Assembly (NCBI GenBank): GCA_018262715.1
Contig: JADFDS010000009.1
Location: 1-64,000, forward strand
Source of the DNA: Bacteroidota bacterium
GTDB lineage: Bacteria > Bacteroidota > Bacteroidia > Bacteroidales > VadinHA17
Direction of reading: 5' to 3'
Length of the DNA stretch: 64,000 nucleotides
Shown here: positions 8,943 to 23,633 of the stretch, one piece after another
Position numbering within the stretch: the stretch's first letter is position 1
Layout: each line of letters opens with the position of its first letter
Position numbers and translations under genes: made by a program
Notes under the pieces: generated by a model
What the model saw: only the letters and a program-made list of their open reading frames with translations
Database searches by the model: none
What the model was told of the DNA's origin: nothing

Positions 8943-10691
8943 CTACCGCAGGCTGAATTTCACCGGGACTGTCATTCTCACTTCGACAGCCTTGCCATGT
9001 TGAGTACCGGGTTTCCAGGCTGGCATCTCCCCTATCACTCTAACCGCCTCAGCATCGAGCAAAGGATGTGCAGACCTTTCAACACTGATGTCAGTAACCT
9101 TCCCTGCCTTGTTTACTATGAATGACACCATCACCAGTCCTGTAATGCCATCCTTCTTGGCCTGCTCCGGATACTTCACCCGCTGGGAGATCCATAGCAT
9201 CATGGCTTCCATGCCCCCCGGAAACTCGGGCATTTCCTCCACAATAACAAAAACATCCCTGTTCTCTTCCTTGCCGTAGCCTGTCACGGTTACTTCCTTC
9301 TGCTTGTCAGGCGAAGCGACAGTATTCTTTTTCGTCGTTATCTCAATGACTCCATCTTTCCCCTTCTCACCGTATTTCGCAACAGCCTGTTCGCCCTTCA
9401 GGACATGGATTTCTGCTATAACGTCCGGAGATATCTCCGAGAGGGGTTTGTTTGTCACCTTTCCATCCAATACTACAAGAGCCTTTGACGGACCAGATGC
9501 TGGTGGAGGCGGAGGAGGCGGAGGAACCGCTACAGTGTCAATAATCATATTTCCCCACTGCAACTGCGTTGTAATATAGTTACCGGCAGCCTTTACCGAG
9601 ACAGCTTTCGTAACATAGCCGACATAGGTAATTACCAGGACTGCATCGTCGGGAACATCCTTAAGCGTAAAGCGTCCCGAACCGTCGGTGGTTGTACCGG
9701 CCGTTGTGCCCTTCACCAATACTACCGCCCCTTCGAGCGGGCCACCCTTTTCATCCGTAACCACCCCGCTGACATTTTTTGTCATGTCTGCCGTGACCGC
9801 GGCCGAAGCAGTTAATCCCTGCTCCTCCGGGCTGACGGTGTACCTGGGCTCTGCAAATGCATAGAGTACCAGTGCGGCGACAGGCAGGATCAGTAACAGC
9901 CTGAGCTTACGGTATGGCGAACTGATTTTATTTTTCATCATTTGAAATCGTTTTTTGTTTAGTGAATAACTGAAAAAGTTGCCCAGGTCGATTACCGGAG
10001 AGCCGGCGATCTGGTTAAGCAGCACGGCCCTGTAAACGGCCGGATCGGAGGAACGCTGCAGCGCCTCCTCATCAGCCAGATACTCATGGTTCTGCCTGAT
10101 GAACCTGGAATAGATCCATACGGCAGGATTGAACCACTGAACCATGCACAGAAGCGATGAAAGCACCAGGTCAAACCAGTGCTTCTGCCTGATATGCACC
10201 ATCTCATGAATCAAAATCTCCCTTGTCTCGGTCTCTGTAACTGAAGGATTGACAACAACATAGGAGAATAATGAAAATGATCCGGGAAACTCGGGCGAAC
10301 GCAACACCTTCACCGGATAACCGGAGCTCCGGTCAGCATCACCCGCTGCCCTGAGCACAGGCAACACCTGCATGACATACCTGAAAAGCATGGTCCCCGC
10401 TCCGGCAAGCCAGACGGCAAACAACGCAATCGCCAGTATATTCTGCCAGGAACTGCCGCCACTCAGCGCTGCCGTTGCCGGCCCGGCTTCGGCAGCCGCC
10501 TCAGCGACAGACACCTCAACCGCATACCGCACTGTGAACAGCGGAAGGACGACCGAAGCCATGATACCAATAATAAGGTATATACGGTTCAGAAGAAAAA
10601 ACCTCTCATTCCTGAGAAAGAGCAGATAAACAAGGGCAAACCCCGTTATCCATACTGCTGACCTGAGAAGGTAAAAACCCACCGCTTCCAT
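8943..10691 (-). CDS. M56 (BlaR1-type) peptidase fused to CarboxypepD_reg, plug-like and TonB C-terminal domains
   Basis: 582 residues. Membrane segments lie near residues 6-27, 33-53, 85-107 and 265-283. The cytoplasmic zinc site is intact: HEMVH (HExxH) near 163-167 and HEYLADEEAL with the third ligand. After the last helix, residues about 305-375 form a carboxypeptidase-regulatory beta domain (VSGVVTDEKGGPLEGA...VGY), then an eight-proline stretch, a TonB-receptor-plug-like segment (ALVVLDGK...YGEKGKDGVIEITTKK) near 403-450 and a TonB C-terminal domain (PEFPGGMEAM...KYPEQAKKDGITG...WKPGTQHGKAV) near 480-582. It shares TAATG with the upstream blaI-like gene. By analogy with BlaR1/MecR1 it senses an envelope signal and cleaves the repressor; the signal is unknown and no beta-lactamase is nearby. 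Confidence 0.88.
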   Translation of the reverse strand: MEAVGFYLLRSAVWITGFALVYLLFLRNERFFLLNRIYLIIGIMASVVLPLFTVRYAVEVSVAEAAAEAGPATAALSGGSSWQNILAIALFAVWLAGAGTMLFRYVMQVLPVLRAAGDADRSSGYPVKVLRSPEFPGSFSLFSYVVVNPSVTETETREILIHEMVHIRQKHWFDLVLSSLLCMVQWFNPAVWIYSRFIRQNHEYLADEEALQRSSDPAVYRAVLLNQIAGSPVIDLGNFFSYSLNKKRFQMMKNKISSPYRKLRLLLILPVAALVLYAFAEPRYTVSPEEQGLTASAAVTADMTKNVSGVVTDEKGGPLEGAVVLVKGTTAGTTTDGSGRFTLKDVPDDAVLVITYVGYVTKAVSVKAAGNYITTQLQWGNMIIDTVAVPPPPPPPPASGPSKALVVLDGKVTNKPLSEISPDVIAEIHVLKGEQAVAKYGEKGKDGVIEITTKKNTVASPDKQKEVTVTGYGKEENRDVFVIVEEMPEFPGGMEAMMLWISQRVKYPEQAKKDGITGLVMVSFIVNKAGKVTDISVERSAHPLLDAEAVRVIGEMPAWKPGTQHGKAVEVRMTVPVKFSLR

Positions 10692-11101: not shown

Positions 11102-11132
11102 CAAATATATGACTAATTTCTTAGTCATGCAA
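11102..11132 (-). promoter_or_regulatory. blaI promoter with operator in the spacer
   Basis: Read leftwards, TTG (11130-11132) and TATATTTG (11102-11109) are 20 nt apart, close to the Bacteroidota consensus. The spacer is almost wholly filled by a perfect 8-bp-arm palindrome at 11109-11128 (ATGACTAA-TTTC-TTAGTCAT). This geometry is that of a repressor operator that blocks polymerase. Confidence 0.7.
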
Positions 11133-11151: not shown

Positions 11152-11167
11152 GACTATTTTTTTAGTC
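11152..11167. promoter_or_regulatory. Second BlaI-type operator dyad
   Basis: GACTA-N6-TAGTC, with the same half-sites and 16-bp length as the core of the promoter palindrome at 11111-11126, 41 bp away (about four helical turns). A third isolated half-site, AACTAA, lies between them. Assignment to the BlaI-like regulator is inferred from position and repetition. Confidence 0.6.
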
Positions 11168-12601: not shown

Positions 12602-13846
12602 TTACTCTTTATTTGCGCTTTCGGGCCTCAGAATGGCCAGCTGAAGTATGACGGCAAGCAGAACCGGGATTGCCAGCAGAGCCATATCACGTGCCAGGTT
12701 ACCTGAATCCATCGATTTTCCCAGAAGCCTGGTTATGAAAGCTCCAGCAAATACGCCTGCCATATTCATCAGGCCATAACCCGTCGCCCTCAGGCGCGGC
12801 GTAACAAACTGGCAGAGGATCGGCATGTTATTGGCATCAAACATGCCATACCCGATTCCGAAAAGTACTGCGCCGCCTATGATCCACAGGTAGCTGTGCC
12901 CGAGTCCGATCAGCAGAAGTGACGGAATGGTGAGTGACAGGCCTATGGCACCTGTATAAATGCGACCGCGAATGTTCTTCAGTATCCACCTGTCAGACAG
13001 TATGCCCCCGAAGATCACACCAACCAGTGAGGAGAATGCAATAATTATGGTTGACATCGGCCCGGCTAACGGCATCTCTATGCCAAGACTTGATGAGAAG
13101 AGCGTCGGGATCCAGTTCTTGACAGCCCAGCCTGGTATGCTCGGTACGGCGAAATAAAAGAGGATCATCCAGAAACTTATCATCCCGAACAGAACGGAAA
13201 GCCCCGAAGCTGCTGACCTGAATCCGGAGACACCCGGTGAGACCTTTTTTACTTTCTTCCTGTATTTGTATTCGCGAAGCAGCAAAATCAGCACCAGGCT
13301 GTATATTATGCCCACAATACCGAAGTATTGAAATGTTTTCTGCCATGACAGGCTGTCAGCTATGGTGGCCCCGAAACCACCCAGGGCCTGTCCCATATAT
13401 AGCCCCGTCATATGTATTCCCACCGCCAGTGATCGTGTTGAGCCCTGGTGATAATCGGCAATAAGGGAAAGCCCGGCTGGTATGTAAAGCGCCTCACTGA
13501 CACCCATTATCGCCCGCAGGGCATAGAGAACCCCATAGTCATGGGTATAGCCCATTGCGAAAGTGACCCCTGACCATACGAAGAGGCTGCCGACGATCAG
13601 CCATTTCCTGTTGAGCCTGTCGCCAATGATTCCCGCTACGGGACTCATCAGCCCGTAGATCCAGAGGAAAACCGCCATCAGCCTGCCGAAATTCTCAGCC
13701 TTTTCCAATTCCACGATGTCAACCATCATGGCATTCTTCATGGTGGAAAGCATCTGGCGGTCCATATAGTTGAGCAAAGCAACCACCCAGAGCAGCGCCA
13801 CCACAACCCAGGCATACCTTCTTTCTGCAACGCTCTCTTTCATCAT
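12602..13846 (-). CDS. nanT: MFS transporter, probable sialic acid permease
   Basis: 414 residues with about 12 transmembrane helices. MFS signatures are visible: NYMDRQMLSTM in helix 1 and GIIGDRLNRKWLI (motif A) between helices 2 and 3, and SDRWILKNIRGR in the repeat half. Its start shares TAATG with the epimerase gene, placing it last in the sialidase-lyase-epimerase operon. That context makes N-acetylneuraminate import across the inner membrane the likely job; hexuronate-type MFS proteins look similar, so the substrate is inference. The second Met (13843) is an equally possible start. Confidence 0.82.
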   Translation of the reverse strand: MMKESVAERRYAWVVVALLWVVALLNYMDRQMLSTMKNAMMVDIVELEKAENFGRLMAVFLWIYGLMSPVAGIIGDRLNRKWLIVGSLFVWSGVTFAMGYTHDYGVLYALRAIMGVSEALYIPAGLSLIADYHQGSTRSLAVGIHMTGLYMGQALGGFGATIADSLSWQKTFQYFGIVGIIYSLVLILLLREYKYRKKVKKVSPGVSGFRSAASGLSVLFGMISFWMILFYFAVPSIPGWAVKNWIPTLFSSSLGIEMPLAGPMSTIIIAFSSLVGVIFGGILSDRWILKNIRGRIYTGAIGLSLTIPSLLLIGLGHSYLWIIGGAVLFGIGYGMFDANNMPILCQFVTPRLRATGYGLMNMAGVFAGAFITRLLGKSMDSGNLARDMALLAIPVLLAVILQLAILRPESANKE

Positions 13847-15030
13847 TATGCAGTTTTTACCGGTTCAACATCACTGAGTGTCTTCCATACCTGCAGCAAT
13901 CCTCTGGGGATGTGGAAACACCCCTTCCACTTTCCGCCCTTGAGCGGCAGGAGCACTTCTCCCCTCCGGTTCAGGTAACCGTACCACTCTCCGGATTCAG
14001 GGTCGGGGAAGTGACTCCATGTATAGGCATCAACCTTCTCAAACCAGTCGAGGCAGCGCCTGTCACCTGTCAGCCTGTACCCCTTTGCCAGTGAGATAAG
14101 AGTTTCGATATGCACCCACCAGAGCTTCTGATCCCACTCCAGTTGCTGGGGAGGATATCCTTTTACGTCCAGGAAATAGAATATGCCACCATGCTTCTCA
14201 TCCCACCCCTTACTTAACGTCTGCAGGGTGATTTCGGTGGCCCTGGCTGCAAGCTTCTGATCTCCCCTGATCTCGGAGAGGTCCATCATGAACCACATGG
14301 CTTCTGTGACGTGTCCGGGATTCAGCAGCCGGCCTTCAAACGAATCAGAAAATGATCCGTCAGGAGCCACGTTCTCCAGGATCAGGCCATATTCCTTGCT
14401 GTTGAAGACATCCATTACCTCATGTATACACTCCTCCCTTACCCTTTCAACAGTTCCGGCATCAAGAAGCGGTGCTATGATCCCCGAGAGATTGCTGAGA
14501 ATCATCGGAAGGGAGAAGCCCTTCAGCGGCCGGGTGCCCGGATATACTTTTGACCAGTTGCCTTTAGGATTACCGGAACGGCCGAGAATGTTCCGGAATG
14601 TATTCAATGCAATCTCACCGTACCTGCTGTTGCCTGTTGCCCTGAACAATTCACCAAATGCCATTGCAGCGAAACAGTCAGAGAAAATATTGCAGGGATG
14701 GACGAGAGGCTTCCCTTCCCGGGTCAGAGAGAAATAAAAGTTGCCATCACGGTCACTTCCGTATTTCTCAAGGAAGGCTGCTCCGGACAGTGCCGTTTCC
14801 AGCCATTCCTGTCGTTTCTCAACGTTGTTGAAGAGGTGACTGAACATCCATACCTCTCTTCCCTGGAGCCAGATGAACTTGTCCGTGTCATATACCTTTC
14901 CGTTACGGTCAAGGCATGTGAAATAGCCTCCCCGTTCACGATCAGGCGAGTACTTCATCCAGAATGGAATGATGTCATTCAACAGCGCATTCCTGTACCG
15001 CTCAGCTACTGACTGTAATTGAGTATTCAT
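13846..15030 (-). CDS. nanE: N-acylglucosamine 2-epimerase (AGE/RnBP family)
   Basis: 394 residues, normal for the (alpha/alpha)6-barrel AGE family. Active-site histidines are seen in NPGHVTEAMWFMMDL (near 237-251), EKHGGIFYFLD and KLWWVHIETL (near 330), with the family's conserved Trp/Arg surroundings. In Bacteroidota nan operons this enzyme converts N-acetylmannosamine, released by the lyase, to N-acetylglucosamine. It starts 8 nt after the lyase stop and ends at TAATG with the transporter. The nagA/nagB step is not in the window. Confidence 0.88.
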   Translation of the reverse strand: MNTQLQSVAERYRNALLNDIIPFWMKYSPDRERGGYFTCLDRNGKVYDTDKFIWLQGREVWMFSHLFNNVEKRQEWLETALSGAAFLEKYGSDRDGNFYFSLTREGKPLVHPCNIFSDCFAAMAFGELFRATGNSRYGEIALNTFRNILGRSGNPKGNWSKVYPGTRPLKGFSLPMILSNLSGIIAPLLDAGTVERVREECIHEVMDVFNSKEYGLILENVAPDGSFSDSFEGRLLNPGHVTEAMWFMMDLSEIRGDQKLAARATEITLQTLSKGWDEKHGGIFYFLDVKGYPPQQLEWDQKLWWVHIETLISLAKGYRLTGDRRCLDWFEKVDAYTWSHFPDPESGEWYGYLNRRGEVLLPLKGGKWKGCFHIPRGLLQVWKTLSDVEPVKTA

Positions 15031-15038
15031 AGTCTTCT

Positions 15039-15980
15039 TTACCTGAATCTGGCCATTCCTGATGCCTTTGAAAACAGATCATCCATTCCCAGTTCCCTGA
15101 CATCCTTAACGAATGCCTGGTAGTCAGCCACTGACATATTCCTTACCGGCAGCCTGAACTCGCCGCAGTCAAGGCCTATGAACCTCATATAGGCTTTTCC
15201 CGTGGCAATTCCTCCGTATTTGGCCAGCAAAGTGATCATGTCAATTGATTTCTCCTGCATTGCGCGGGCAGTGACCTGATCATTCCTTTCAAAGGCCTCA
15301 ATCATCCTGTGATAGAGTGGAGCGGCATAGTTGTATGTGCTTCCGACAGCACCCCGGGCTCCAAGGACCAGCGCAGAAAGGAAGTTTTCGTCTCTGCCCC
15401 ACAGCATGTCATACCTGCCTTTGTCATAATTCAGGCAACTCAGGAAATCCATGAAGTCTTCGTGTGTATACTTGATGCCTGCAAAGTTGGGCACACGCGG
15501 CGCCACCTCCCTGACAAAGTCGATCATGTTGAAAAATCCACCGGTAAGCACCGGGATATGATAGTAATAAACGGGCATTTCAGGAACTGATTCCGCCACC
15601 CTGATGAAGAACTCCGCAAGCATCTTCACATTTGCCGGTTTGAAGTACGAGGGAGATGTCACTGCCACTGCATAAAGTCCCATCTTCTCCGACTCCCCGG
15701 CCAGTTCGATACAGTCCCTGTAGCATGTTCCTCCGAGGTGACTTATGACCTTCAGATTGCTGGTGGAAGAGGCTTTTGCCCAGGCTTCTGCAACAATCAG
15801 CTTCTCGTGGTTCGTGATTGAGACACCTTCGCCTGATGAGCCGTTTATGAAAGCACCCACCACTCCGTTGGAGACAAGCAGCCTGTGATATTTCTCAATT
15901 ATGCCGGAATTGATTTCCCCGTCCGGATACATCGGAGTGAAGGGTGCGGCAATCAGGCCGGCAAGTTTTTCAATCTTCAT
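15039..15980 (-). CDS. nanL: N-acetylneuraminate lyase (DHDPS/NAL family)
   Basis: 313 residues, a class I aldolase TIM barrel. Visible are the substrate carboxylate loop GSSGEG (residues 48-53), the catalytic tyrosine in YYYHIP (near 138), the Schiff-base lysine in FAGIKYTHED (near 169) and YGGIATGKA. The YYYHIP and GIKYT forms fit neuraminate lyase rather than dihydrodipicolinate synthase, and so does the setting between sialidase and AGE epimerase. It should cleave N-acetylneuraminate to N-acetylmannosamine and pyruvate in the cytoplasm. Confidence 0.9.
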   Translation of the reverse strand: MKIEKLAGLIAAPFTPMYPDGEINSGIIEKYHRLLVSNGVVGAFINGSSGEGVSITNHEKLIVAEAWAKASSTSNLKVISHLGGTCYRDCIELAGESEKMGLYAVAVTSPSYFKPANVKMLAEFFIRVAESVPEMPVYYYHIPVLTGGFFNMIDFVREVAPRVPNFAGIKYTHEDFMDFLSCLNYDKGRYDMLWGRDENFLSALVLGARGAVGSTYNYAAPLYHRMIEAFERNDQVTARAMQEKSIDMITLLAKYGGIATGKAYMRFIGLDCGEFRLPVRNMSVADYQAFVKDVRELGMDDLFSKASGMARFR

Positions 15981-16050
15981 AATGTCATTTTATCATAAGT
16001 CTGAATGTTGAGACCGGCAAACCTGATTCACCGGTTAAATTTCCTTCTGA

Positions 16051-16464
16051 TTATGGTTTCCACCCATATCTTACAGCCATTGCTCCCGGAGCATTGATTT
16101 CCAGACGGTTGCCACGGATGCGGGCAGTTGCCGCCTTGAAGTCATGACCGCTTTCGGATACCTCGACTTCCCTGAGAGGCAATCTGACTGAGGTTTTCAG
16201 CCTGCCTGAATACCTGAATGAGACGATGACCATGTCCCCCTTTCGTTCAGCGGAGACAGGTTCCGGGCTGCGGGGAGCCTTTCTGATCCTCGAATCGTCG
16301 GACAAACCGGTCTGACTGACCCTGAAATTTTCTGCGGACCTGCTGATTATCTGTGGCGCAGGTATCAGAGATGTTTTTTCTGACGCCGGTGCCGGGTAAG
16401 TGATCCCGCCTGTAAACAGGCTGATCAGGATCAGAAGGAGCCATTTTTTTGCGAGGAGATTCAT
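16051..16464 (-). pseudogene. Short secreted chimera: GH20-like N-terminus joined to sialate O-acetylesterase-like C-terminus
   Basis: An intact 137-residue frame with a signal peptide (KKWLLLILISLF... ). Just after it, SLIPAPQIISRSAENFRVS matches the way the N-terminal domain of GH20 beta-hexosaminidases begins. From about residue 80 the frame reads VSFRYSG..., VEVSESGHDFKAATARI, NRLEINAP and AVRYGWKP, which resembles the last beta-sandwich of sialate O-acetylesterases. No catalytic region of either enzyme remains. The simplest reading is an internal deletion that fused two neighbouring sialoglycan genes in frame. It could still be an expressed small envelope protein. Gap to the sialidase stop is 14 nt. 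Confidence 0.5.
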
Positions 16465-16478
16465 CAGGGAGAGGCAGG

Positions 16479-18116
16479 TTACTTATCCCCGAAGAAATCG
16501 GCTGCAGGAATTATTTGAAAATAGAGTTCCTTAACCCCCTCATAGAGGATACCGACCTGGGTTTCGTTAACCATTGTCAGGCATGAATATCCGTAACCGG
16601 AAGGACCGAACAGTTCCACCTGGTTTTCCTCCGGCCAGGTCAATCCCTGGTCAGTGCTGGCCTTGATGGTCATCCTGATCCTGCTGTTCCTGTCATCCGG
16701 ATTGGAAAAGAAGAGAATATTTTTATCCGCTCCGGCAATTTTGATCTTTGCCGAGATGAGGCTGGCCATGCAGTTCGGCTCAGGGAGGGCAGAATTTGAA
16801 GAAGGATGAGCGGTCCATGTCCTGCCCAGGTCGCCGGTAACGGCTACTGCCCTGCCGTTTGTATCACCTTTGTCGCTCCTGTTTCTGTCATCACGCATGT
16901 TAAGCATAAGTGTGCCGTCGGCAAGCTGCACCACCTGGGCTTCAGTTGTATTTGATTTTGCGCCGGTACCAATCTGCCATGTATTCCCTCCGTCCCTGCT
17001 GCAGACAACAGTCGAGTGGCATGTGTACTGCCCCCCGTCCAGGGCCTTCGTTCCGATGTCTGCCTTGAACTGGGCCGGGAAAACAAGTGTTCCGTCATCC
17101 ATTGTAATACCCCGGCCAGGTCCCTGAAGGAGCAGTTGCCATGCAGTATCCTTGATCTGTGAGGTGATATTCACCGGTTCAGACCATGTGAGCCCGTCAT
17201 CAGTGCTCTTCACGAGGATGAACTGGCCGGTCTCCTGCGGGGTCATCCCAGGCTGCGAAGCCCACCAGAGCATCTTGTCAGGCGCTGAACCGCTCATCCA
17301 GAGCGCTGCCACCCATAGTGTACCGGTAGTATGATCATACAGGATGCTGGGATCACCAATGCCGTTCAGGTTCTGTGGCAGACCTCCGTATTCACCCATA
17401 TCCATTATCACCTTCATCGGCTCCCATGTCCGCCCTCCGTCTGTACTTCGGCTCATACCTATATCAATATCCTCCTGAAGGTCCTTGCTGTTGTTGTACC
17501 TGATGTCATATACAGCCACCAGGATTCCTTCATTTGTTGTCACAAGTCCCGGAATGCGGTAGGTATCTGCTCCATCCTGCCCCGCTGCACGGACAATCCT
17601 TCCAAAGCGAATAACAGGATCTTCCGGTTTTGCCTCGTAACTGGTTGATGACCCGTTACTGAATGTAAAGATTACAGATTCTATCTTCAGTCTTCCGGCA
17701 AGGTCAGCGTTGGCTCTTGTCCTGAAATCAAACATGAAAGTATGCTTGCCTCCCGCAACAGGCAATTGGCACTCAACCAGCGTAAAGAGTGAAGGTTCAC
17801 TGACAGTTGCCAGCATCTCTTTCTGCGGTACTCCAGGAACCACACCCGTATACCATGCGGTCAGTGCCGACAGTGCCTGCGGGCTGCTTTCGTCTGAGAA
17901 GGTAATTCCGATGCTTTTCAGGGAGACAGATTCGTCCTCACCGGTGATCGTGAACATCAGGCTGACAAGGTCATTATTAGTCCTTTCGGGAAAAATCGGT
18001 TCTGTACTGAAGATTGCAACGGTCTCGCTGACGGCAAATCCGGAAGTCGCCTCCTTTGAGTCTCCGCATTTCGAAGCTGTCAGTAGAAGTAAAAGAAAAA
18101 GGAGCAGTGTTCTCAT
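16479..18116 (-). CDS. nanH: Exo-alpha-sialidase (GH33)
   Basis: About 545 residues from ATG at 18116, chosen because it begins the signal peptide (MRTLLLFLLLLLTASKC); the longer frame starts at 18185. The Cys has Lys before it, a poor lipobox, so lipid attachment is uncertain. Residues about 30-165 are the beta domain often found before Bacteroidota sialidases. The propeller follows: YRIPGL near 186-191 with the first arginine, five Asp boxes (STDGGRTW, STDDGLTW, SRDGGNTW, GDLGRTW, STDQGLTW), RDDRNR, SRIRMT and a Tyr-containing GYGYSC near 508. It releases terminal sialic acids outside the cytoplasm for the lyase pathway downstream. Confidence 0.93.
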   Translation of the reverse strand: MRTLLLFLLLLLTASKCGDSKEATSGFAVSETVAIFSTEPIFPERTNNDLVSLMFTITGEDESVSLKSIGITFSDESSPQALSALTAWYTGVVPGVPQKEMLATVSEPSLFTLVECQLPVAGGKHTFMFDFRTRANADLAGRLKIESVIFTFSNGSSTSYEAKPEDPVIRFGRIVRAAGQDGADTYRIPGLVTTNEGILVAVYDIRYNNSKDLQEDIDIGMSRSTDGGRTWEPMKVIMDMGEYGGLPQNLNGIGDPSILYDHTTGTLWVAALWMSGSAPDKMLWWASQPGMTPQETGQFILVKSTDDGLTWSEPVNITSQIKDTAWQLLLQGPGRGITMDDGTLVFPAQFKADIGTKALDGGQYTCHSTVVCSRDGGNTWQIGTGAKSNTTEAQVVQLADGTLMLNMRDDRNRSDKGDTNGRAVAVTGDLGRTWTAHPSSNSALPEPNCMASLISAKIKIAGADKNILFFSNPDDRNSRIRMTIKASTDQGLTWPEENQVELFGPSGYGYSCLTMVNETQVGILYEGVKELYFQIIPAADFFGDK

Positions 18117-18437
18117 AAATACAAATCTTTGAAAAAAATCATTCAAAAAAACAGGCAGTATCCCGGCCCTTCCCAGTACCGTCATTATTTCCCGGATGCT
18201 TTCCCGGCCTTCAGGGGGCTTCTGTTGAGCACCTGTTAAGGAAAAAGCATGATCAGCCCGCGAGTGAAAGAGAATTTTCTTTTCAAAAATTGAGTTGGTT
18301 ATGGGATTAGAATTGAAGAAGTAATTGCTTTATGTAATACATAGAATAATACAAATTTAATTTTAAAATTCCACATGCAAGGATTTCTCCTTTATTTTTG
18401 CTTTTTTTGTAATACTTTAGTATCTATTGGATAAATA
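18117..18437. promoter_or_regulatory. Divergent nan operon/gntR control region
   Basis: Leftward, TAAATTTG (complement of 18352-18359) is a likely -7 box for the sialidase operon, implying a leader of about 230 nt. The octamer TGTAATAC occurs at 18333-18340, over the expected leftward start site, and again at 18408-18415, 22 nt before the gntR ATG. The second copy lies in a perfect ATACT-TT-AGTAT palindrome (18412-18423). The two copies are 75 bp apart. They are good candidates for operators of the adjacent GntR protein. Confidence 0.55.
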
Positions 18438-19172: not shown

Positions 19173-19843
19173 AATAAATCTATCGCTGCAAAGAAGCCCA
19201 TCTGAACCGCGAAGAGAGGCAACGCCCTGCTGTTGATTTCCTCCTCTCCCCAGACCCTGGTCACCGCATGAAACACGGCAGAGAAGAAAAACCAGCCGAG
19301 GTAATTCTTCAACGGAATCACCTTGCACTCCCATGACCACATGTCAAGCCTCATTGCTGCCGGCTCCAGGAAAAGGTCATATGCAACCATGAGCAGCGAG
19401 CCCGTGAAAATCACGAACAGCGACTTTATTACTCCCCCGTGCCGGCGTGTATTGTCATGCGGTAATCGTTCCCACAACTGCCGGCTGATGACATTTGTGC
19501 AATAGATCAGCAGGAACCAGTTGAGGCCGATTATTAATGGTGTGTTCAGCAGGGTTGGTCCGAGAGTCTGTCCGTAGATGTATACTCCGAAAATCTTCCC
19601 GGTTTCGGTGCCGGCGGCTTCAATGAAGAAGGAAGTCACCGCAATGAACAATCCCGTGAAAATCACCCGCCTGGCAGGCAACTTCCCCCAAAAAAGAAAC
19701 ACCGCCGCAAACAGCAGGTTAAGCGGGGTTATCAACTTGAAAAGCTCCCTGCTGAAAGGCAACAGCATCCCCGCGAGTCCAACGCCGTAAACCCATAAAA
19801 GGATCTCGGTCGATTTCAACAATCGTGGTTTCAGTGCTGTCAT
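19154..19843 (-). CDS. cruF: CruF-like carotenoid 1',2'-hydratase (DUF422)
   Basis: 229 residues with about seven membrane helices. Motifs of the carotenoid biosynthesis DUF422 family are visible: FFIEAAGTETGKIFGVYIYG, LGPTLLNTPLIIGLNWFLL, AYDLFLEPAAMRLDMWSWE and NYLGWFFFS. Family members add water across the terminal psi-end double bond of acyclic carotenoids. The start overlaps the upstream desaturase stop as ATGA. It is the last gene of the carotenoid operon, and its 3' end overlaps gntR tail to tail. Confidence 0.9.
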   Translation of the reverse strand: MTALKPRLLKSTEILLWVYGVGLAGMLLPFSRELFKLITPLNLLFAAVFLFWGKLPARRVIFTGLFIAVTSFFIEAAGTETGKIFGVYIYGQTLGPTLLNTPLIIGLNWFLLIYCTNVISRQLWERLPHDNTRRHGGVIKSLFVIFTGSLLMVAYDLFLEPAAMRLDMWSWECKVIPLKNYLGWFFFSAVFHAVTRVWGEEEINSRALPLFAVQMGFFAAIDLFYLLAA

Positions 19844-21309
19844 TTTGCCGCAGGTATCATGTCACATGCAATCTTTGCGGATGCAAGGCAGAGGGGTATG
19901 CCCCCGCCGGGGTGGACAGAACCACCGACAAACCACAGGTTCTCATACCTGTTCCTTACGTTCGGGTGGCGTCTGAAAGCCGCGAACCGGCTGTTGGAGC
20001 TGCTGCCGTAGAGGGCGCCGCGGTGCGAGGCCGTCAGGTTCTCTATCAGCGGCGGGTCAAGCACCTGCTCTGCCCCGATAGCCTCCTCAATGCTGCAGCT
20101 GAGCCGTTTTCCCAGTTTCTGAATGATGTTTCCGCGAGCCACACTTACAACCCCCTTCCAGTCCTGCCCTCTGTCGTACGGTACGTTGATCATTACGAAC
20201 CAGTTGTCCTTCCCTTCAGGAGCATCGGTACTAACCGCTCTCGATGATGCAAACAGATAGACAGTCGGGTCAGCGGAGACCTCTCCCTTTCGCAGTGCGC
20301 GAAATTCACCCGGATAGTCAGATGAGAAGAATATGTTGTGCAGGTCGAGCTCCTCAAACCGCCTGTTCATTGCCCAGTAAAAGATGAGCGCCGAGGTGCT
20401 CCGCTCCTGCCTCTCCTGTTTTCTTGCATAAGTTTCCTCCTTAAGAAGCTTCCGGTAAAACGGTATCACATCAACGTCCGATACAACAACACCAAACGGT
20501 TTTACTCCCGCTGTGGTTTCAACTGCACTGACGATCTTTCCCTGCTTCACCACCGAAACCACCTCCTCGCCGGTATGTATTGTCACTCCGCACCTGCCTG
20601 CCAGCAGCTCAAGTGCGTCTACAATCTCCCTCATCCCCTTTTCAGGGAAGAAGGCGCCCATGTTGTGCTCCAGGTGCGCAATCACGTTCAGTGTTCCCGG
20701 CGCCCTGTATGGACTTGAGCCATTGTAAGTGGCATAACGGTCAAAGAGCTGGATCAGCTTCGGGCTTCTGAACCGCCTGCTGATAATCCCGTGCATGGTG
20801 GAGAAGGCATTCAGCTTCCTGAAGTTGCGGGCAACGTTGAGCGACTCCGGCTTCCTGAAGTTTTCAAGCTGGTAAAAAGGTGAAAAAATAAATATCCCTG
20901 CCGTCAGGTCATACAGTTCGGCGCACTCATCCAGGAAACCCAGTATGTTTTCACGCGGCTCACCGGTGACTATCTCAGCTTCCTCCGCAAAGCGCTGTCT
21001 GTCAGTCCATGCGTTGAGCAGCGTTCCATCATCCCAGAAATACCTGCACGACGATACCAGTGGCACATACCTGAAATGCCCGCGGGGGTCTTCACCGGCA
21101 AGGGTGAAGAGTTCATCAACCAGCTCAGGGAGGGTGAACAGAGAGGGGCCGGTATCAAACCTGCAACCGGCAAGTCTCATCTCCCCTATCTTGCCTCCGG
21201 TACGGCTGCTCTTTTCATAAAGGTGGGTGTCGTAACCCTTTACGGCCAGTCTAATTGCCGATGCCAGGCCTCCGATGCCCGCCCCTATAACTGCTGCCTT
21301 TGTCTTCAT
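19840..21309 (-). CDS. crtD: CrtD-like carotenoid 3,4-desaturase (CrtI family)
   Basis: 489 residues. FAD-binding Rossmann motif GAGIGGLASAIRLA at 9-22, then YEKSSRTGGKIGE and the C-terminal FAD contact NLWFVGGSVHPGGGIPLCLASAKI. Two CrtI-type genes occur in this operon; this one sits next to CruF and has the Gly-Gly-Ile-Pro form common in 1-hydroxycarotenoid 3,4-desaturases, so CrtD activity is preferred over phytoene desaturation. It overlaps cruF by 4 nt and follows crtB by 16 nt. Confidence 0.82.
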   Translation of the reverse strand: MKTKAAVIGAGIGGLASAIRLAVKGYDTHLYEKSSRTGGKIGEMRLAGCRFDTGPSLFTLPELVDELFTLAGEDPRGHFRYVPLVSSCRYFWDDGTLLNAWTDRQRFAEEAEIVTGEPRENILGFLDECAELYDLTAGIFIFSPFYQLENFRKPESLNVARNFRKLNAFSTMHGIISRRFRSPKLIQLFDRYATYNGSSPYRAPGTLNVIAHLEHNMGAFFPEKGMREIVDALELLAGRCGVTIHTGEEVVSVVKQGKIVSAVETTAGVKPFGVVVSDVDVIPFYRKLLKEETYARKQERQERSTSALIFYWAMNRRFEELDLHNIFFSSDYPGEFRALRKGEVSADPTVYLFASSRAVSTDAPEGKDNWFVMINVPYDRGQDWKGVVSVARGNIIQKLGKRLSCSIEEAIGAEQVLDPPLIENLTASHRGALYGSSSNSRFAAFRRHPNVRNRYENLWFVGGSVHPGGGIPLCLASAKIACDMIPAAK

Positions 21310-21325
21310 TGCTCTGCGTGGCCTT

Positions 21326-22165
21326 TTATAACAATCCTGCTCCGTCCTTCACAATCACCTTCAGAAGAAGCCATAATTTCCTGGTGTTGGAAATGCGGAA
21401 ACGCTGTCCGGTAACAGCTTCCGGCGGCGTTTTCCTGATCCTGGCAAAGAGCGCCTGATAATATGAATATGCCAGGTATACGCCCCGGCGGCTCCCGTGG
21501 TCTAGCCCCCTGATTCCCTCCAGGGCTGCGCTGAAATCGGCTGCTATGTCGTCCTCTATCTGTCTCTTTTCAGCCACGGTGAATTTATTGAAGTCAACCC
21601 CCGGGAAATAGACTCTCCCGCGGTCGACAAAATCACTGCGGATATCCCTGAGAAAGTTCACCTTCTGAAAGGCCGAACCGAGCCTGCGGGCAGGTTCGCG
21701 AAGCCTGTCAAATGCCCGGGGATCATCATGGCAGAAAACCCTCAGGCACATCAGTCCCACCGCTTCGGCTGAGCCGTAAATGTATTGATTATAGCTGTGG
21801 CGATCATGGTTCTTCTGCTCAAGGTCCATCTCCATGCTGCAGAGGAATGCCTCTATGAACTCATTATCAATATTATAGGTATTTACCGCCCACTGGAACG
21901 AGTGTAGCACCGGATTCGGGCTGACCCCCCCGGAGATCGCCTCTGCCGTATCCTGCCGGAACCGGTCCAGCATCTCCCTCTGGCTGTGGCCGAAGAAGGT
22001 GTCCACTATCTCGTCGGCCAGCCTGACAAAACCGTAAATCGCGTAGATGGCTGGACGATGTCTTACTGCCAGGGTACGGATCCCCAGCGAGAAAGAGGTG
22101 CTGTAACCGGTGGTAACCACCTTGCTGCACCTCAGTGATATGGTGTCATAAAGTGCCGGCTTCAT
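21326..22165 (-). CDS. crtB: Phytoene synthase
   Basis: 279 residues, normal for CrtB. Two aspartate-rich prenyl diphosphate sites are visible: FVRLADEIVDTF (near 46-57) and FLRDIRSDFVDRGRVYFP (near 172-189), with QKVNFLRD before the second. It condenses two geranylgeranyl diphosphates to phytoene at the membrane surface. It overlaps crtI by 20 nt. No GGPP synthase is in the window. Confidence 0.94.
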   Translation of the reverse strand: MKPALYDTISLRCSKVVTTGYSTSFSLGIRTLAVRHRPAIYAIYGFVRLADEIVDTFFGHSQREMLDRFRQDTAEAISGGVSPNPVLHSFQWAVNTYNIDNEFIEAFLCSMEMDLEQKNHDRHSYNQYIYGSAEAVGLMCLRVFCHDDPRAFDRLREPARRLGSAFQKVNFLRDIRSDFVDRGRVYFPGVDFNKFTVAEKRQIEDDIAADFSAALEGIRGLDHGSRRGVYLAYSYYQALFARIRKTPPEAVTGQRFRISNTRKLWLLLKVIVKDGAGLL

Positions 22166-23633
22166 TATCTATTCTCTGTACTGTCAGTTTTGAGCTGATT
22201 ATAACCATCGGGAGACCTGTCCCGGGAACAGTCGAAGCGCCTGTATACCAGACGTTTGAAAACATTTCATCCCTGTTTGAGGGCCTGAATCCCCCCACCT
22301 GGGTCATTTTGTGCCCCAGCCCGAGCCCGCTGCCGCGGTATAAACCGAACATATTCTGCCAGTCGACCGGGTCAAGCACCACGCGCGTCATGAGATTGGC
22401 CTCTACGTTATGGCCAGTACGGGCCGACAGATCCTTTATCACCGCATCGGCAATGCGCTCCCTGTCACTCCAGTCGGGTTTAAACCTCAGGTCAGGCACC
22501 GGCACAAGGATAAACAGGTTCTCACAGCCGGGAGGTGCACTCTGCGGATTGAAAATGGCGTTGGCGTTAACGTAGTAATAGGGCTTATCAAGTGAAACTT
22601 TATTCCTGAAGATCCCTTTCGAATAAGGTTCATAGTCTCTGTCCCCGAGGAAATAGTTATGATGGTGGATGTTCTCCATCTTTCCCTTTACACCCAGGTA
22701 GATTGTAAGAGGAGCCAGCGTCCACTGCATCCGGTCAAGCTTTTCATCAGTGAATGCCGGCCGGCGGAACACCCTTCCCCGGAACATAGCAGCATCAGCG
22801 TTTATAACGAATATGTCTCCCTCCCAGCGCCTGCCGTCAGTGTCAATGAATGCCCTGTTCCTCCTGCCCGAACCGTCGAAGCCGTTTATGGTGACATTGT
22901 AGTTAATCTTAATTCCGGCCTTTTCAGCTTCGCGAAGCAACCCATCCACGATACGATACATTCCGCCCTCCACGTTGTGATAGCCGTCATGCACCATCTC
23001 GGTGTAGCTCAGGATGGTATACACGGCCGGGGTGTCAAACGGGGTGGCCCCGAGGAAGAATGATACCAGGGAGAAGATGACCCTCACCTCATAGGAGGTA
23101 AAATAACGGCTCATCTCGCTCCACACTGACCGCATCACTTTCGGGACATGCTTCACCGGCAGCTTCGTCATCTGCATCATGAAGTCGGGCAGCGATCTGA
23201 AGTTTTTGGCCAGTACACCCTTTTCGATGTCATCAAACAGCGCCCCTGATGAGGCAAGGAACCGTGCCATCCGGTCACGGAAGCCCGGCTCGATATCCTC
23301 AAACTGGTGAGCAAGCCTGTCGAGGTCACGGTATATGGTGTACCATCTGTCACTACCCCGGAAGTTCACGCGATACAGGGGATCAATCTGAACGAACCGG
23401 AACGGCATCTCTATGCCCGCATCCCTCACGAACTCGTCGAAGTGATAGCTCATGCTGAAAAAGGTGGGGGCCATATCAAAGGTGAAGCCTCCGGAGGTCA
23501 GCTGGTTGAGCCTTCCGCCTGCCTGCCTGTACATCTCCACCATCTCCACCTCATAGCCCCTGCGTCTTAGACGCAGTGCCGTCGCCAGCCCGCCAAGTCC
23601 GGCGCCTACAATCAGCGCTTTCTTTCCTGTCAT
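22146..23633 (-). CDS. crtI: Phytoene desaturase
   Basis: 495 residues. FAD motif GAGLGGLATALRLRRRGYEV at 11-30, EMYRQAGGRLNQL, and a C-terminal NVWYTGASTVPGTGLPMVIISSK that is typical of CrtI. It should introduce conjugated double bonds into phytoene to give lycopene-type chains. The start is 4 nt after the TPR-like gene and the end overlaps crtB, so the central pathway genes are translated together. Confidence 0.92.
   Translation of the reverse strand: MTGKKALIVGAGLGGLATALRLRRRGYEVEMVEMYRQAGGRLNQLTSGGFTFDMAPTFFSMSYHFDEFVRDAGIEMPFRFVQIDPLYRVNFRGSDRWYTIYRDLDRLAHQFEDIEPGFRDRMARFLASSGALFDDIEKGVLAKNFRSLPDFMMQMTKLPVKHVPKVMRSVWSEMSRYFTSYEVRVIFSLVSFFLGATPFDTPAVYTILSYTEMVHDGYHNVEGGMYRIVDGLLREAEKAGIKINYNVTINGFDGSGRRNRAFIDTDGRRWEGDIFVINADAAMFRGRVFRRPAFTDEKLDRMQWTLAPLTIYLGVKGKMENIHHHNYFLGDRDYEPYSKGIFRNKVSLDKPYYYVNANAIFNPQSAPPGCENLFILVPVPDLRFKPDWSDRERIADAVIKDLSARTGHNVEANLMTRVVLDPVDWQNMFGLYRGSGLGLGHKMTQVGGFRPSNRDEMFSNVWYTGASTVPGTGLPMVIISSKLTVQRIDNEAGTL

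Follow-up and report, generated by a model that had tools for sequence, protein, structure and literature searches.

A BlaI-linked M56 protease of Bacteroidota carries TonB and SusC-type modules in place of a penicillin-binding sensor domain

Within a 64,000-nucleotide stretch of DNA from a Bacteroidota bacterium (hereafter, the window), our analysis revealed a BlaR1-like M56 zinc protease, encoded beside a BlaI-type repressor, whose ectodomain is assembled from modules of the Ton system and its TBDTs. We read this pair as a self-inducing switch of the BlaR1/BlaI type in which exchangeable envelope modules have taken the place of the sensor half, and we give this reading a probability of roughly 55%; the switch would probably monitor the Ton/TBDT machinery or the envelope and not antibiotics. 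The arrangement of an M56 protease with TonB modules is widespread, not unique to this locus. A related gene in a public record is annotated just as "M56 family metallopeptidase", and in Parabacteroides distasonis an annotated BlaI-M56 pair stands next to a TonB gene. A search of the open-licence PMC literature, by titles and abstract openings, found no functional paper on M56-TonB fusions, with papers elsewhere possible. The features of the locus are collected in Table 1.

Table 1. Features of the blaI-M56 operon and its promoter region in the window (positions within the 64,000 nucleotides; residues refer to the M56 protein).
Feature	Position	Strand	Basis or remark
M56 sensor protease with Ton/TBDT ectodomain, 582 aa	8943..10691	-	ORF; Pfam/NCBIfam; AF2 model
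Helix 1, residues 2-26, presumed TM1	10614..10688	-	AF2 helix
Helix 2, residues 32-51, presumed TM2	10539..10598	-	AF2 helix
Helix 3, residues 81-117, presumed TM3	10341..10451	-	AF2 helix
M56 protease region, residues 130-285	9837..10304	-	Pfam; BlaR1 8exp sequence match; structure match
Zinc motif HEMVH, residues 162-166	10194..10208	-	E203 = candidate third ligand
Helix 4, residues 260-278, presumed TM4	9858..9914	-	AF2 helix; beyond BlaR1-aligned stretch
SusC-type NTE / carboxypeptidase-regulatory domain, residues 303-382	9546..9785	-	Pfam; phmmer; 9hfj Z 15.8
Segment with raised synonymous divergence, residues 385-582	8946..9539	-	Codon comparison; trees agree in part only
Poly-proline linker, eight prolines, residues 390-397	9501..9524	-	Sequence
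Plug-core module, residues 402-456, 55 aa	9324..9488	-	phmmer; module model; Foldseek; VIA-align
Ton-box-like EVTVTGY, residues 466-472	9276..9296	-	Motif scan; cf. Bt1763 DEVVVTG
TonB C-terminal domain + VEEMPEFPGG leader, residues 481-582	8946..9251	-	Pfam; 2k9k/5lw8; 6i97 Z 11.3
BlaI/MecI-type repressor, 128 aa	10691..11077	-	Penicillinase_R 99.5 bits (E 2e-28); MecI 1okr E 1.2e-8
Promoter-like TTG-N20-TATATTTG, dyad 2 in spacer	11102..11132	-	Promoter-pattern scan
Operator dyad 2, GACTAAGAAATTAGTC, putative	11111..11126	.	Dyad pattern scans
Operator dyad 1, GACTAAAAAAATAGTC, putative	11152..11167	.	Dyad pattern scans

The protein is encoded by one ORF with an ATG start and comprises, in order, three modelled helices, the M56 protease, a fourth helix, a SusC-type NTE, a poly-proline stretch, a plug core, the strand EVTVTGY, and a TonB C-terminal domain. 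Pfam placed Peptidase_M56 at residues 135-233 (48.5 bits; cut-off, 31), CarbopepD_reg_2 at residues 307-377 (59.6 bits; cut-off, 32.2), and TonB_C at residues 504-581 (66.9 bits; cut-off, 24.6). Among NCBIfam models, the SusC/RagA profile matched two stretches of the protein (E 1.5e-27; 96.4 bits, below the full-length cut-off of 368), the SusC signature matched residues 425-454 (29.6 bits, below the cut-off of 46.2), and the blaR1/mecR1 models covered the protease part only. No transpeptidase or PBP family appeared among the Pfam matches at E values up to 1, nor did Pfam find an outer-membrane barrel family; the protein stops after TonB_C. In the full-length AF2 model (pLDDT 79.6, pTM 0.49), residues 4-243 resemble BlaR1 (8ext; Z 15.8, rmsd 3.6, 215 aligned), residues 303-384 the NTE of a dextran SusC (9hfj; Z 15.8, rmsd 1.5, 80 aligned, 36% identity), and residues 485-582 the TonB of a FoxA complex (6i97; Z 11.3, rmsd 1.7, 88 aligned). 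The initial annotation had described an M56 protease with carboxypeptidase-regulatory, plug-like, and TonB modules, which the ORF, the Pfam and NCBIfam matches, and the structure matches bear out, the plug-like part being a 55-aa plug core only. Its further claim, that TBDT/Ton modules stand where a penicillin-binding sensor might be expected, held up in Pfam, NCBIfam, phmmer, and the model.

The likeness of the protein to BlaR1 is supported in its protease, its modelled fold, and its BlaI partner. The protease matched the BlaR1 sequence (8exp) at E 1.4e-4, and H162, E163, H166, and E203 were invariant across 35 aligned rows. HExxH was present in all 79 frames of the named relatives, and also in 114 survey proteins, for which it was a condition of collection. 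The blaI gene lies directly upstream, with one base common to blaI and the protease ATG. The scissile pair of MecI, which we take to be N101-F102, aligns opposite F98-F99 of the window BlaI, and these two phenylalanines are frequent among BlaI sequences (148 and 144 of 209, respectively). By analogy with the staphylococcal proteins, the protease would face the cytoplasm and act on BlaI, and a relay from the ectodomain to BlaI is plausible.

We take residues 402-456 as a plug core, a module too small for high scores, on the basis of several weak, agreeing tests of sequence and model. Specifically, Pfam Plug matched residues 401-447 at 18.9 bits, under its cut-off of 23.9, and in phmmer residues 402-457 paired with 181-236 of 8aa4, a SusC homolog (E 0.008 for that stretch alone), to which the NTE part (residues 305-389) also aligns, in the same order. 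Modelled alone (pLDDT 87.8), the module found its best matches in the plugs of SusC and other TonB-dependent receptors, which filled the first 36 of 36 Foldseek rows (8aa4: E 3.4e-3, TMq 0.80, rmsd 1.3, 42% identity); the top VIA-align Z was just 5.0 (6z9a). The NTE and plug core are homologous to, and ordered as in, those of SusC-type transporters such as Bt1763, from which the window protein differs in lacking an outer-membrane barrel and in bearing these parts on an M56 protease with a TonB C-terminal domain. In the portion of the Bt1763 paper available to us, the order is NTE, Ton box, plug, and the Ton box reads DEVVVTG (PMC7782687). The phmmer alignment of our NTE with SusC extends to residue 389 and sets window DTVAV opposite DEVVV, and the window's EVTVTGY is placed C-terminal to the plug core. 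With a search pattern that was drawn up once examples had been seen, 16 Ton-box-like motifs were found in 14 of 71 complete relatives, none of them inside a domain, 15 between domains, and one past the last; eight of the 16 sit between NTE and plug, the SusC order. In shuffled ectodomains the mean was 0.09 and the maximum 2. In a wider survey the motif was rare, at 2 of 53 proteins with Ton modules and none of 63 without. The full-length model, in which the linker carrying the motif has a pLDDT below 50, gives no sign of a strand docked on TonB_C.

The plug module varies even among close orthologs. It is kept in five of eight ortholog rows, the window included, and is missing from L085 (G165), L086 (G149), and L089 (G154), where the prolines run to TonB_C; TonB_C is present in all eight rows, and P390-P396 are invariant in the same alignment. 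In a tree of the N-terminal part, L085 has L086 as its sister (93/93) and L089 stands apart, which by inspection implies at least two changes in plug presence. The initial annotation also suggested that the ectodomain may sense or touch an outer-membrane receptor. In any such contact the plug is unlikely to be essential, given its absence from three orthologs of the same genus that retain the NTE, the poly-proline linker, and TonB_C.

The promoter region of blaI offers candidate operators for such a circuit. Staphylococcal bla and mec systems have paired dyad operators and are autoregulated, and the promoter form of Bacteroidota is TTG/TAnnTTTG. We defined a strict dyad as GACTA-N6-TAGTC and a loose dyad as one allowing G/A and C/T at the ends. 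Across the loci of the 79 named relatives (898 kb, ~0.9 Mb), 83 strict dyads were found, 79 of them at most 520 bp upstream of blaI. Among the 72 testable loci, that is, named loci with enough sequence upstream of blaI, 45 had at least one strict dyad and 34 had two, whereas the loose form occurred at least once in 55 and twice in 53; in 51 of these 53, the spacing was 39-41, and a dyad was embedded in a TTG/TAnnTTTG promoter-like arrangement in 47 of the 72. Even the loose dyad was missing in 17 of the 72 testable loci, several operons of the C5 type (described below) with a GTCTA variant among them. By analogy, we infer that the two dyads of the window are BlaI-bound operators.

In the window's own genome (G000; 3.15 Mb, 98% complete), the strict dyad has three sites, two at the window blaI promoter and a third within a coding frame. 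A reversed control pattern gave 14 sites against these three, so that rarity alone shows nothing and the weight rests on the positions of the sites. Eight genus relatives were scanned with a narrower AT-core form rather than the N6 form: six have a single copy apiece, in every case at the orthologous blaI promoter, and the form was not found in the other two, one of which (G153) has an N6-form dyad at that promoter. A relaxed scan of G000 returned 34 and 32 sites on the two strands versus 114 and 120 for its control, and the naming of regulon targets from it was dropped, as its counts fall below its own control. Among its two-mismatch sites, two were inspected: C40:36421 falls within a frame, and C40:140896 falls between frames. 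At strict-operator stringency in this genome, the circuit controls itself; weaker targets may exist.

G000 encodes three M56 genes over the cut-off and three BlaI genes, and every BlaI gene adjoins an M56 gene. A fourth M56 match was set aside, being below the cut-off and reading like HtpX (M48). Elsewhere in the genome, the C5 pair (L015 2806-6694) comprises a thioredoxin-like gene followed by BlaI and an M56 protein with two TonB_C domains; the thioredoxin-like gene is preceded by a pair of one-mismatch operators spaced by 40 bp (C5:72660 and 72700). The end of the C44 protease aligns with TonB_C, yet it is absent from the TonB_C profile-search matches. The genome also encodes free-standing TonB-domain proteins, one of them (L019) with a proline-rich spacer. 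Further, in L021 (1398-3232, on C24) the gene after an ECF-sigma-like gene encodes a protein of 364 aa with TonB_C at its end (Pfam 29.8 bits) and, by eye, one hydrophobic stretch; it occupies the position of an anti-sigma factor and may represent another type of TonB-domain regulator. ECF-sigma-like genes also lie near BlaI-M56 in 10 of 86 loci (e.g., L166 8926-9525), nine of them upstream on the opposite strand. Inspection by eye of the 25 neighbour clusters listed identified neither a TBDT gene nor a beta-lactamase or PBP gene. Elsewhere, the window holds a likely sialic-acid group (12602-18185; an MFS transporter, a GlcNAc 2-epimerase family member, an N-acetylneuraminate-lyase-like gene, and a BNR-repeat protein) and likely carotenoid genes (19840-23633; a phytoene synthase family gene, SQS_PSY, flanked by two desaturase-like oxidoreductases, the second assigned by eye).

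Across the phylum, M56 matches were found in 104 of 148 genomes, 78 of them over the cut-off. Our two samples differ in how they were drawn. The 79 named relatives were found via the family alignment and are biased towards the M56-TonB design; the set of 71 complete relatives excludes truncated and short frames, and L170, in which no frame was found, was dropped. The survey is a non-random sample, among the matches listed, of 110 loci (30 from the best-scoring matches and 80 hand-picked down the list) with 116 M56 frames, each of which had to match the M56 profile and contain HExxH; the module profiles were built from this M56-TonB family and iterated. BlaI is adjacent in 77 of the 79 named relatives (76 upstream, one downstream) and in 110 of the 116 survey frames, the six others being L040, L242, L260, and second M56 genes behind a BlaI-M56 pair in L187, L193, and L223. 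TonB_C is present in 42 of the 116 survey frames and any of TonB_C, plug core, and NTE in 53; the same profiles found none of the three in the remaining 63, which makes the Ton modules one set among several.

For a check with Pfam, L040 and L047 (cut by the locus) were left out, giving 114 frames, and L227:661-1278 was also removed, giving batches of 65 and 48 proteins. TonB_C was found in 19 of 65 and 23 of 48. Plug was found in 10 of 65 (16 of 66 with our own profile) and was not among the families listed for the other 48 (2 of 50 with our own). In the batch of 65, Pfam also reported ExbD in three proteins, Amidase_3 in three, POTRA in one, and M23 in one. Of 20 survey proteins without Ton modules that were scanned singly, four BlaI-linked M56 proteins carry, instead of TonB_C, another envelope domain, namely ExbD in L187 (3931-5778) and L206 (2444-4333), POTRA in L188 (2221-3702), and Amidase_3 in L232 (2273-3742); the remaining 16 showed none. 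Copy number varies as well: among the 71 complete relatives, plug cores number zero, one, two, three, or four in 14, 35, 10, 9, and 3 proteins, TonB_C domains number zero, one, two, or three in 7, 41, 18, and 5, and the NTE is present in zero to two copies. The 1,110-aa M56 protein of L143 (5941-9273) combines a single NTE with four plug cores and three TonB_C domains.

The tip of the window protein (residues 385-582) has probably been replaced by a diverged allele through recombination. Compared with the nearest ortholog, L082, third positions of shared four-fold codons differ at 37 of 130 (28%) over residues 1-288, at 18 of 46 over the NTE, and at 54 of 75 (72%) over residues 385-582 (Fisher p 1.4e-9 for the first stretch versus the last, with residue limits and ortholog groups set after the sequences and the divergence profile had been seen). 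Downstream genes return to a pS of 0.46-0.49; upstream, pS is 0.28 for BlaI, 0.35 for the next gene, and 0.44-0.62 for three further genes. A similar step separates the window from five of six other orthologs (p about 0.001 or less) and not from L088 (p 0.55), and three ortholog pairs that exclude the window show none (p 0.88, 0.25, and 0.47). Strong codon constraint on the M56 part may add to the contrast, although it would leave unexplained why the pairs that exclude the window lack the step. The tree evidence is weaker: the N-part tree unites the window with L082 (100/100) and the C-part tree places it with L085 and L086 (87/89), with no starred branch, while constraining the window to L082 in the C-part was rejected only marginally (p-AU 0.047). 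A frame at a contig end (L090 3-755) reads like a window-type start that passes into a C5-type stretch near residue 218, through either recombination or an assembly error.

In the self-inducing switch we propose, BlaI on the two dyads within the blaI promoter would keep the operon low, with the protease part in the cytoplasm, between helices 3 and 4, and the NTE, poly-proline linker, plug core, Ton-box-like strand, and TonB_C hanging in the periplasm. The trigger would be the gain or loss, by the ectodomain, of a partner in the Ton/TBDT machinery or of another outer-membrane element; the signal would pass via helix 4 to the protease, which would cleave BlaI and derepress the operon. Sidedness, the binding of the repressor to the dyads, and BlaI cleavage are carried over by analogy from the bla and mec systems. 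The ligand would, we infer, be a component of the Ton system or the outer membrane, Ton receptors being natural candidates because the ectodomain modules share an origin in a single machinery; the ExbD and POTRA ectodomains found in relatives are in keeping with a class whose members display parts of envelope machines. The relayed signal looks like self-induction first, since the only intergenic strict operators in the genome adjoin the operon's own promoter, so that the first output would be more sensor.

That same operator set keeps a serious rival in play, one that we nonetheless regard as unlikely: the protein may work mainly as a TonB, with M56 and BlaI setting its own amount and the TonB domain driving or passively serving transport. 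Intergenic strict operators restricted to its own promoter are what self-dosing would lead one to expect; further, TonB_C scores far above its cut-off, and the proline-rich spacer recalls that of the free-standing TonB L019. Against a TonB role, the genome already holds free-standing TonB-domain proteins, related M56 ectodomains with ExbD, POTRA, or an amidase do not make a TonB, and 23 of 71 relatives have two or three TonB_C copies and seven have none. The SxxxH motif was absent from all 35 relatives (four helices), which is not decisive, and its use as a test of ExbBD coupling was dropped, since free TonBs of the same genome, inspected by eye, lack it too.

Improbable to a similar degree is that the ectodomain senses a cue outside the Ton system, such as peptidoglycan or a periplasmic ligand, with TonB_C, plug core, and NTE serving as generic small binding folds. 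The Amidase_3 and M23 families among the ectodomains would suit such sensing, as would a plug core that is tandemly repeated and shuffled and that forms a small stand-alone fold when modelled, the lack of a TBDT among the listed neighbour clusters, and the copper response described for the cyanobacterial BlaI/BlaR1-like pair PetR/PetP in the part of that report available to us (PMC7896320). However, part of the relatives carry NTE, Ton-box-like strand, and plug core in SusC order, together with TonB_C, and generic binding hardly explains such concentration on one machinery. An annotation artefact, through fused neighbour genes or misassembly, has next to no credibility. Frames are broken or short in relatives from some MAGs even though the tblastn match continues (L104 5998-7857 and L126 4989-6739), but the same continuous frame and module set recur in full-length orthologs of several genomes and also in cultured species, Marinilabilia salmonicolor and Thermophagus xiamenensis among them, and dN is well below dS in the modules with estimable dS; we consider the artefact refuted by these conserved continuous frames.

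In its parts, the M56-TonB system is of the BlaI/M56 kind. It has in common with Staphylococcus aureus BlaR1/BlaI and MecR1/MecI a BlaR1-fold M56 zinc protease and an adjacent BlaI-family repressor gene, and it departs from them in its presumably periplasmic TonB/TBDT modules, in the absence of the penicillin-binding sensor domain that characterizes BlaR1 and MecR1, and in having, in this genome, intergenic strict operators at its own promoter only. The Synechocystis pair PetR/PetP, a BlaI-family factor and a BlaR1-family protease that respond to copper, is similar in lacking a beta-lactam role, which indicates that BlaI/M56 pairs can answer other signals; in the available portion of its description, the regulon is very small, at four proteins, the targets are photosynthetic, and, unlike for the window pair, Ton modules are not named (PMC7896320). 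If the proposed relay is true, the window pair would also share with TonB-dependent cell-surface signalling, as outlined in the accessible part of one account (PMC7593790), the use of regulated proteolysis to connect the Ton/TBDT layer with transcription. In contrast to the anti-sigma signalling described there, the protease itself bears the modules, and its presumed target is the BlaI repressor.

BlaR1 and MecR1 are known chiefly as antibiotic sensors. More tentatively, and at odds that we place clearly below even, BlaI/M56 pairs across the phylum could be proteolytic switches that read whether the Ton system has free Ton boxes or occupied TBDTs. In such a class the BlaR1-type protease would bear the NTE, Ton box, and plug core of a receptor as well as the C-terminal domain of TonB, the Ton-box strand in cis possibly competing with outer-membrane receptors and the tips being swapped by recombination to change what is read. 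The operator pair could serve directly as a reporter, and having one strict target keeps the circuit simple. If our reading is true for many Bacteroidota BlaI/M56 pairs, they would form a large signalling class that reads envelope machinery through exchangeable ectodomains, and this class would belong to bacteria of the gut and the environment that rely on TonB-dependent import for their living.
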